Source: Phycisphaeraceae bacterium | GTDB lineage: Bacteria > Planctomycetota > Phycisphaerae > Phycisphaerales > Phycisphaeraceae | Length of the DNA: 64,000 nucleotides | Reading direction: 5' to 3' | NCBI GenBank assembly: GCA_020831765.1 | Contig: JAFIFY010000047.1 | Coordinates: 1 to 64,000, forward strand | Shown here: piece after piece, positions 2,601-63,534 of the stretch | How the letters are laid out: each line of letters opens with the position of its first letter | Numbering within the stretch: the first letter of the stretch is position 1 | Program-made: the position numbers and the translations under genes | Notes under the pieces: model-generated | What the model was told of the DNA's origin: nothing | Database searches by the model: none | What the model saw: only the letters and a program-made list of their open reading frames with translations

Positions 2601-3956
2601 ATGAGCGACCAGCCTCAAAAACCTCAGGATGCCGGATCGGGTTCCGATCAGGCCGGAGCTTCATCATCCAACGGTAGGCCCATCCCGGATATCGCCGAGC
2701 GCCATCTCTGGCAGTTCGCATGGATTCGCGATCTCATGGTGCTTCTGCTGTTGGCGCTGATCCTGATGCTGATGCTGGCCGCCAGCACTGTGGTCACGCC
2801 CGTGCTCGTGGGTCTGGCCCTGGCCTATGTCTTCAATCCGCTGGTGACCTTCCTTTACCGGAAACGAGTCCCACGATGGCTGGCTTCACTGTCGATCCTG
2901 CTGATCGCCCTGCTGTTCGGTGCCGCGCTCCTGCTTTACGTCACGCCCAAGGCCATCGGCCAGGTCGCCGAATTGGTTCGCAATGTACCCGGACAGGTGC
3001 AACGGCTTTCGGATCGATACGACTGGCGGTTGGAGGAGCGGCTGGATGGTGTTCGGGATTCTCTTGAATCAACGCTGCGAGGAACTCTGGGGCTGGTCGG
3101 GCAAGCCGATGCCGTTGCCCAACCGCCGCCGGAAGCGATGGCCGATGACCCGGAGGACCGCGATCCGGAAGCCAGGCCGGCCGACGAGCATGGTGAAGAG
3201 CCCGATCCCGATGCACGGGTTCGGTCTCAGACGGGAACGCCGCAGTGGGAAGTGGACTATCAGCAACTGGCCGAGGGGGGCTGGCTGGCGACTCGCTGGG
3301 TGATGTCACGTCTGCTGGAGATTCTGGGCTTCTTCACCTGGCTGTTCATCTCGCTGCTGCTGGTCGCGGCGAGTTTCATCTATTTCAGTTGGCACCTGCC
3401 GGAACTGGGAAATCAGCTCGACCCGCTCCTGCCGCCGCGCCAGCGCGATCTGATCTGGCGAATGATCGGCCGGATGGACCGGGCGGTTTCGGCGTGGCTG
3501 CGCGGCCGACTGCTGCAAAGTCTGGTCGTGGCGGTACTGCTGAGCCTGGGCTGGTGGCTTGTCGGCGTCCCCTACTGGCTGGTCCTAGGCATCCTGGGCG
3601 GTGTTCTCAACCTGATCCCCTACGCTGCGGGAATCGCCTGGCCGTTGGCCGTGGGGCTGACGTGGGTCAGTGCCGTGGGCACCGAAGAACCACCCAGCCT
3701 CTTGTGGATCATTCTGGCCCCAACCATCGTCTACTTGATCGCCCAATTCGTGGATGGCTCGGTCATGGAGCCTCTGGTCCAGGGTAAGGCCACCGAGTTG
3801 AACTGGCTGGTGGTGCTGGTGGCGGTCATGATCGGCGGGGCCGTGTTCGGTTTCATTGGGCTAATCCTGGCGATTCCCGTCACGGCATGCATCAAGATCC
3901 TCTGGCAGGAATGGCTAAGACCCCGGCTTCTGGAGTATGTCCAGGGCATCGGATAG
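2601..3956 (+). CDS. AI-2E family (PerM/YdiK-like) membrane transporter
   Basis: This 451-residue polytopic membrane protein belongs to the AI-2E exporter/PerM superfamily, whose members include autoinducer-2 exporters and ion antiporters; the substrate here is unknown. Two hydrophobic helices follow a polar N-terminus (about residues 40-80). A third follows near 95-115, then a periplasmic-type region, then a cluster of about five helices in the C-terminal half, the usual family layout. An acidic, proline-rich insertion at about residues 170-215 makes it longer than the usual 340-380 residues. The ATG at 2601 was chosen because the frame upstream of it is not membrane-protein-like; the RBS is weak. 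It is probably monocistronic. Confidence 0.85.
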   Translation: MSDQPQKPQDAGSGSDQAGASSSNGRPIPDIAERHLWQFAWIRDLMVLLLLALILMLMLAASTVVTPVLVGLALAYVFNPLVTFLYRKRVPRWLASLSILLIALLFGAALLLYVTPKAIGQVAELVRNVPGQVQRLSDRYDWRLEERLDGVRDSLESTLRGTLGLVGQADAVAQPPPEAMADDPEDRDPEARPADEHGEEPDPDARVRSQTGTPQWEVDYQQLAEGGWLATRWVMSRLLEILGFFTWLFISLLLVAASFIYFSWHLPELGNQLDPLLPPRQRDLIWRMIGRMDRAVSAWLRGRLLQSLVVAVLLSLGWWLVGVPYWLVLGILGGVLNLIPYAAGIAWPLAVGLTWVSAVGTEEPPSLLWIILAPTIVYLIAQFVDGSVMEPLVQGKATELNWLVVLVAVMIGGAVFGFIGLILAIPVTACIKILWQEWLRPRLLEYVQGIG

Positions 3957-62008: not shown

Positions 62009-62114
62009 CGGAGCACTCCATCTTCCGCGACGGGGGTCATTTTCGCGTCATCCGTAGTACCAGAAATCACTGCAACGGTCGAACCCCCCGGCGATGGCAG
62101 GCGTATGATTCAGT

Positions 62115-62301
62115 GAAACGAGGCCTGATGCTCGTTTCCAGGGCTCCTGACCCAAGCCCTGAGACCCCCAGAACGGACGCTGTGTTTAGAGAGACCAGAC
62201 CCTTACCAACCCGACCCCGTTTCTTCTTTTCTCCTCCTGCCTCCTTGAACAGCGTCCACACACGACCCGACCGGAACTCCCACGGTCGGGTCTTTTTTTT
62301 T
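62115..62301 (+). ncRNA. Candidate structured small RNA with anti-Shine-Dalgarno loop
   Basis: TATGAT (62104-62109) lies 5 nt before three perfect stems. Stem 1 is GAAACGAG/CTCGTTTC (62115-62122 / 62131-62138). Stem 2 is CAGGGCT/AGCCCTG (62139-62145 / 62155-62161). Stem 3 is GGACGCTGT/ACAGCGTCC (62175-62183 / 62249-62257). Its 65-nt pyrimidine-rich loop includes CCTCCT (62233-62238) and CCTCCTT (62240-62246). A terminator follows. The frames here are not coding-like. The unit may be a trans-acting small RNA, or an attenuated leader of the epimerase gene 255 nt downstream. Confidence 0.6.
62264..62301 (+). terminator. Strong Rho-independent terminator without an upstream ORF
   Basis: GACCCGACC (62264-62272) pairs with GGTCGGGTC (62284-62292), followed by about nine T. 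It is the clearest terminator in the window and has no coding gene on the plus strand ahead of it. Confidence 0.9.
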
Positions 62302-62556: not shown

Positions 62557-63534
62557 ATGAACCAGCAATCGGATCAATGTGTGCTCGTCACCGGCGCCGC
62601 CGGATTCATTGGCTCCCATGTGAGCCATCGCCTGCTCGACCGCGGTGTCAAGGTGGTCGGGGTGGACAATTTCAATGACTTCTACGACCCGGCGATCAAG
62701 CGAGCCAACGCCGCTTCGCTGGCCAAGCACCCGGGGTTCACGCTGATGGAAGCGGACATCCGCGATCGCGTGGCGATCCATGAGGTCTTCGAACAGAAGC
62801 GGCCGGCTTCGGTCATCCACCTTGCCGCCATGGCCGGCGTTCGACCCAGCATCGCCAACCCATCGCTCTATGTTGAGGTCAACCTCAACGCCACGGTTCA
62901 TCTGCTGGATCTGGCGGTGCAAACCGGGGTCAAGCGATTCCTCTTCGCCTCCAGTTCCAGCGTCTACGGCAACAACGACAAGGTGCCGTTCGCCGAAGAT
63001 GATCCGGTCGATCATCCCATAAGCCCCTACGCCGCCACGAAGAAGGCCGGCGAGCTGCTCTGCCACAGCTACCACCACCTTTACGACCTGCCGATCTTCT
63101 GTCTGCGGTTCTTCACCGTGTTCGGCCCGGGCCAGCGCCCGGACCTTGCCATCGCCAAGTTCCTGGGTTTGATCGCCGAGGACCGACCAATACCGATGTT
63201 CGGGGATGGTTCGACCAGCCGCGACTACACCTATATCGATGACATTGTCGATGGTGTGCTGGCCGCGCTGGACCGTTGCGGCGGCGCGGAGCTTCCGGGA
63301 TATCGCATCTATAACCTCGGCGGCCAGGATCCGGTTTCGCTTCAAGAGATGATCCAGACCATCGGGGAAGTGGTCGGTCGCCAGCCGCGCATCAATCAAT
63401 TGCAGATGCAGCCAGGTGATGTCGAGCGTACATGGGCGGATCTGAATCGGTCTTCGGCGGAACTGGGTTATCAGCCCAGGGTCAGCTTCAAGGAAGGGGT
63501 CAAGCGCCAATGGGAACGTGTTCAGCGGGGTTGA
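62557..63534 (+). CDS. NAD-dependent epimerase/dehydratase, UDP-glucuronate 4-epimerase-like
   Basis: This 325-residue SDR enzyme probably epimerises nucleotide sugars for exopolysaccharide or glycan synthesis. The Rossmann motif GAAGFIGSH is at about residues 13-21, the catalytic SSSSVYG at about 130-136, and YAATKKAGE (Tyr/Lys pair) at about 155-163. The RDYTYIDD segment is typical of UDP-sugar epimerases. The ATG at 62557 starts the family N-terminus; no RBS is clear. The nearest type is UDP-glucuronate 4-epimerase, but UDP-glucose 4-epimerase cannot be excluded. Confidence 0.85.
   Translation: MNQQSDQCVLVTGAAGFIGSHVSHRLLDRGVKVVGVDNFNDFYDPAIKRANAASLAKHPGFTLMEADIRDRVAIHEVFEQKRPASVIHLAAMAGVRPSIANPSLYVEVNLNATVHLLDLAVQTGVKRFLFASSSSVYGNNDKVPFAEDDPVDHPISPYAATKKAGELLCHSYHHLYDLPIFCLRFFTVFGPGQRPDLAIAKFLGLIAEDRPIPMFGDGSTSRDYTYIDDIVDGVLAALDRCGGAELPGYRIYNLGGQDPVSLQEMIQTIGEVVGRQPRINQLQMQPGDVERTWADLNRSSAELGYQPRVSFKEGVKRQWERVQRG

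Follow-up and report, generated by a model that had tools for sequence, protein, structure and literature searches.

Among described systems, the closest to the locus reported here are the alpha-r14 or cuckoo RNAs (NfeR1, CcsR; RF02344 ar14). The anti-Shine-Dalgarno (anti-SD) motifs of alpha-r14 NfeR1 silence mRNAs at translation start regions (PMC10746234), and in these RNAs CCUCCUCCC is repeated in three hairpins (PMC10746234). Our locus, the window unit, lies in the window, that is, in the whole 64,000-nucleotide stretch of Phycisphaeraceae DNA that was analysed, and it is considered below together with a new family of units from the Phycisphaerales. Like the cuckoo RNAs, the new family is multi-copy and has unpaired pyrimidine anti-SD motifs; however, the cuckoo RNAs are alphaproteobacterial, whereas the Phycisphaerales units have one tract before a terminator. 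The window unit has CCUCCUGCC and two CCUCC in one loop, as against CCUCCUCCC in each of three hairpins, and the RF02344 ar14 model gives it 20.2 bits, below the gathering score of 58.8. By analogy, the best reading is that the new family would work as the cuckoo RNAs do.

Another comparison is with UpsM of Rhodobacter sphaeroides, a 206-nt RNA whose terminator lies inside the mraZ leader and allows ~1% read-through (PMC5089854). The likeness consists of a small RNA of ~200 nt ending in an intrinsic terminator and of an mraZ neighbour, as in the new family; UpsM, however, is upstream of mraZ, in its leader, whereas the new units come after this gene and the window unit has no mraZ nearby. Finally, 6S RNA (RF00013) resembles the window unit in being a stand-alone RNA of ~185 nt. 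This identity was excluded, as there is no RF00013 match in the window and the fold differs; the genome's own 6S RNA is found elsewhere (C99:18602-18786, 47.3 bits).

Anatomy of the window unit and its flanks

The features of the unit, all on the plus strand, are as follows:

62104..62109, +, -10-like hexamer TATGAT, from the sequence; predicted transcription start ~62115-62117
62113..62301, +, predicted small-RNA gene of ~185 nt (fold, non-coding scores, no Rfam gathering match)
62115-62122/62131-62138, +, hairpin 1, a perfect 8-bp stem with an 8-nt loop, from the fold
62139-62145/62155-62161, +, hairpin 2, a perfect 7-bp stem with the loop CCTGACCCA, from the fold
62175-62183/62249-62257, +, perfect 9-bp stem GGACGCTGT/ACAGCGTCC around a 65-nt C/U-rich loop, from the fold
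62219..62246, +, pyrimidine tract GTTTCTTCTTTTCTCCTCCTGCCTCCTT that contains both anti-SD cores (motif pattern and alignment to model R3, see below)
62229-62237, +, family motif TTCTCCTCC inside the pyrimidine tract (motif pattern)
62233-62238, +, CCTCCT in the loop of the 9-bp stem
62240-62246, +, CCTCCTT in the loop of the 9-bp stem
62264..62301, +, intrinsic terminator with a 10-bp stem (62264-62273/62283-62292) and nine T (62293-62301)

An earlier note on this DNA had described the TATGAT, the 8-, 7- and 9-bp stems, CCTCCT and CCTCCTT, and the terminator with its nine T, and all of them are where it had placed them. The loop of the 9-bp stem contains 45 C+T among its 65 nt and, in the fold ensemble, the first CCUCC is mostly free while the second is partly paired.

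The fold of 62104-62301 has a z of -4.5, and not one of 200 shuffled sequences folds as well; it ranks second among 861 intergenic 190-nt tiles drawn from a 424-kb sample of this genome. On both strands of the sample, just 15 terminator-like sites are followed by six T or more, and the terminator of the unit has the third lowest energy and the longest T run among them. The other sites in the top four include one that closes the rRNA operon, after the 23S and 5S genes, and another that follows a gene whose end reads, by eye, as rpoC. The open reading frames that overlap the unit have negative codon scores; none of them appears to be coding, and a short peptide gene was rejected on this score. 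Gene calls in this analysis come from a simple codon-score caller. A scan of the unit against Rfam found nothing at gathering score.

The promoter is only half convincing, because the TATGAT sits 6 nt ahead of hairpin 1, yet no recognisable -35 was found upstream of it. Hexamers resembling a -10 are infrequent in this genome, at only about one in 1,800 intergenic positions. A weak promoter would suit a non-functional structured spacer or the end of a spurious transcript, as would the fact that the unit as a whole is not conserved; we nevertheless hold this to be very improbable given the rank of the fold (2/861), a terminator among the strongest sampled, a -10 that sits just before the 5' hairpin, and a motif common to a conserved family.

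The window comes from the assembly of an uncultured planctomycete, and named contigs carrying the nearest related gene are largely from Phycisphaeraceae and other planctomycetes. Of the two genes that flank the unit, the one on the minus strand belongs to the aldose-1-epimerase family and the one on the plus strand encodes a sugar-nucleotide epimerase. One possibility, which the earlier note had given as its alternative, is that the unit serves the epimerase gene at 62560 as a leader subject to transcription attenuation, its terminator governing read-through. This gene is on the same strand, ~258 nt downstream, and a precedent exists in UpsM, a terminator-ended RNA within the mraZ leader (PMC5089854). 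However, of 23 epimerase orthologues from the family, not one is preceded by a comparable terminator unit bearing a CU tract, which leaves the idea of a conserved epimerase cis-leader unsupported. Moreover, the DNA upstream of the epimerase is mostly coding in the four relatives examined, no alternative antiterminator fold was recognised in the unit, and the mutarotase and epimerase genes are unlinked in relatives, where they lie on separate contigs or far apart. We therefore regard attenuation of the epimerase gene as improbable.

A family of anti-SD units in the Phycisphaerales

The complete sequence of the window unit is known only from its own genome: a blastn search of 100 relatives found no sequence homologue, merely short chance matches, and a comparison with viral contigs found no match. 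A model built from this single sequence (R1) had as its best match a 5S rRNA (L183), recognised by its position after the end of 23S and by its sequence, and rejected; its other match (L184) was a similar-looking unit that was not significant alone. In related genomes, similar intergenic palindromic repeats of the GGGAGAGGGCTGGGGTGAGGG type were seen in L184 (~1330-1440) and L132 (~3230-3330). As a separate observation, L235 (11247-14466) holds 23S-5S rRNA while its 20 kb gave no 16S match, which may mean that the rRNA genes are unlinked.

A first motif pattern, CCTCC..CCTCC..T7, gave no excess over its reversed control, but the search led to a unit in genus g9. This unit is kept in all six g9 genomes, has CCUCCUCC ahead of its terminator, and shows compensatory changes, with double changes in 7 pairs as against 1.6 in shuffles. 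In the g9 units, the CAUCCUCC tract may be masked by pairing with GGUGGAUG. Model R2, built from the g9 unit, gave below-threshold matches, two of which have UUUCUCCUCCGCC directly before a terminator.

The motif pattern of the family is UUCUCCUCC followed by a T6 run 28-58 nt downstream. Among 151 relatives, TTCTCCTCC-N28-58-T6 occurs at ~55 distinct sites, counted after merging overlapping matches, while the reversed pattern matched only 5 times. The sites inspected are mostly intergenic, often with several per genome, and they share a core of UUUCUCCUCC(GCC) followed by an intrinsic terminator. The TCT before the 9-mer and the GCC after it are conserved, although the pattern required neither. 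None of the family units scanned against Rfam reached gathering score. A promoter score of at least 9 of 12 was obtained for 25% of all units, compared with 5% of shuffled upstream regions.

Many of the units recur beside the same gene. Families f1 and f6 account for 19 genomes in which the unit is preceded by mraZ on its own strand: sixteen loci came from the motif pattern, and G027, G067 and G055 add three more. Counting all six genomes of g9, mraZ-linked units are found in ~25 genomes of two families, mraZ having been read in g9 at L243 alone, where MraZ was identified by sequence and the unit (1587-1726) lies downstream of it. The mraZ-linked units lie 350-900 nt downstream of mraZ, and their loci include L243, L286, L287, L291, L299, L301, L313 and L361. 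A second orthologous group, linked to glucokinase, occurs in the window genome (C10), G039 and G021, with loci L359 (G000:C10:17201-17277), L364 and L365, in which CTTTCTCCCCTCCGCCCCGTTG.. lies 80-92 nt after a glucokinase-like gene and a TTGAxx-N17-TAGAYT promoter is common to all; the neighbouring gene appears, by its sequence, to be of the ROK type. In G059 and G071, the units are ~55-60 nt long and directly follow TTGACA/TTGACG-N17-18-TATATT/TATCTT/TACATT promoters; G059 holds a tandem pair of units, and some copies have TTGACA-N17-TATATT promoters. These copies are possibly minimal small RNAs of 55-60 nt. Copies of this kind, TTCTCCTCCTCCGACCC..TTTTTT after sigma-70-type promoters, were noted at L319 (1762-2004), L317, L320 and L321.

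The genome of the window holds further units at C67:36746, C67:22397, C10:17201 and on C191. Two surroundings were noted on C67: a compact unit (L308, 2747-2823) upstream of a gene reading as ribosomal protein L19, and a unit (L358, G000:C67:22397-22474) 246 nt after a gene reading as a cobalamin-type ribonucleotide reductase.

Placement of the window unit

Since the design of a tract plus a terminator recurs as a conserved family in relatives, the small RNA of ~187 nt proposed in the earlier note is supported as an orphan gene of ~185 nt with an anti-SD tract; its proposal of blanket repression is not, as set out below. We consider it probable, though well short of certain, that the window unit is a stand-alone small-RNA gene and a divergent member of this multi-copy Phycisphaerales anti-SD family, the tract of which would block ribosome-binding sites on some mRNAs. 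This reading is based on the anatomy of the unit and its non-random fold, on a family that recurs and shows synteny, and on the match to a family model.

That model, R3, draws on 27 compact units and leaves out the window unit. It matches the window unit with 19.6 bits and an E of ~0.012 over 476 kb, a rough value from a short calibration; the score is modest, and it is the motif and T run that carry it. R3 places its UUUCUCCUCC motif on the pyrimidine tract of the window, its next best match within the window has 9.9 bits, and its best match elsewhere in the same genome, in ~400 kb sampled regardless of motif, has 12.9 bits. The tract is nearly identical in the G143 unit (GTTTCTTCTTTCTCCTCCTG) and the window unit (GTTTCTTCTTTTCTCCTCCTG). 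Against membership, the motif pattern was taken in part from the window sequence itself.

As for the traits that characterise the family, the window unit is intergenic and non-coding and has a tract of the UUUCUCCUCC type followed by an intrinsic terminator. Of a promoter of its own, it has the TATGAT without a -35. It has neither mraZ nor glucokinase as a conserved neighbour; such a neighbour is common in the family but not universal, several members being without one. The architecture is unlike that of the compact members, with 5' hairpins, a stem that closes a large loop around the tract, and 55 nt between the tract and the T run, compared with ~35 nt in the compact members. Taken together, the sequence comparisons suggest that membership is likely, if not proven.

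Alternatively, the window unit could be a genuine orphan small RNA outside the anti-SD family, with a pyrimidine tract of independent or chance origin. The departure from the compact architecture, the lack of a homologue of the full unit, the modest R3 score and the ease with which C/U-rich tracts match all fit such an origin. Yet the tract holds UUUCUCCUCC exactly as the family does and is close to identical to that of the G143 member, the next R3 match in the window falls to only 9.9 bits, and further units are present elsewhere in this genome (C67 twice, C10 and C191), so that we rate an independent origin as unlikely, though a serious contender.

Proposed mechanism, target prediction and significance

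For the window unit as a divergent family member, we infer the following sequence of events. Transcription would run from the TATGAT (62104) to the terminator (62301), and the anti-SD tract (UUCUCCUCC...CCUCCUU) would be presented in the loop closed by the 9-bp stem. The most likely mechanism is that the tract would then pair with some mRNAs at their ribosome-binding sites, blocking the binding of 30S and thus repressing them, while the hairpins would stabilise the RNA and set the accessibility of the tract.

SD-like words are enriched at the gene starts of this genome relative to control positions (AGGA 53 vs 15, GGAG 68 vs 25). Strong SDs are nevertheless a minority, with AGGAG at ~10% of 262 gene starts. 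The target prediction for the tract that the earlier note had proposed gave no signal above controls: the complementarity of the tract to start regions was no better than that of the same tract reversed, and its duplex energies were no better than those of shuffled loops. On these results we claim no regulon, and the blanket repression sparing leaderless genes that the earlier note had envisaged is unsupported.

A broader and more tentative idea, which we put forward as a possibility rather than an expectation, is that genomes in this planctomycete order each encode several sibling anti-SD small RNAs, all with promoters of their own, which together would tune the minority of genes relying on an SD. 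The RNA of the window would then be a gated form, its 9-bp stem and loop regulating how accessible the tract is.

In the literature searched, no trans-acting small RNA was found described for this planctomycete group; the anti-SD family is previously undescribed and is used repeatedly in related bacteria. The linkage to mraZ in ~25 genomes points to a possible tie to growth or division control in this group. If the reading given here is true, a multi-copy, syntenic and promoter-equipped anti-SD family would be a second case beside the alphaproteobacterial cuckoo RNAs, probably an independent one, and it would make the choice of targets by anti-SD RNAs testable in bacteria in which few genes have strong SDs.
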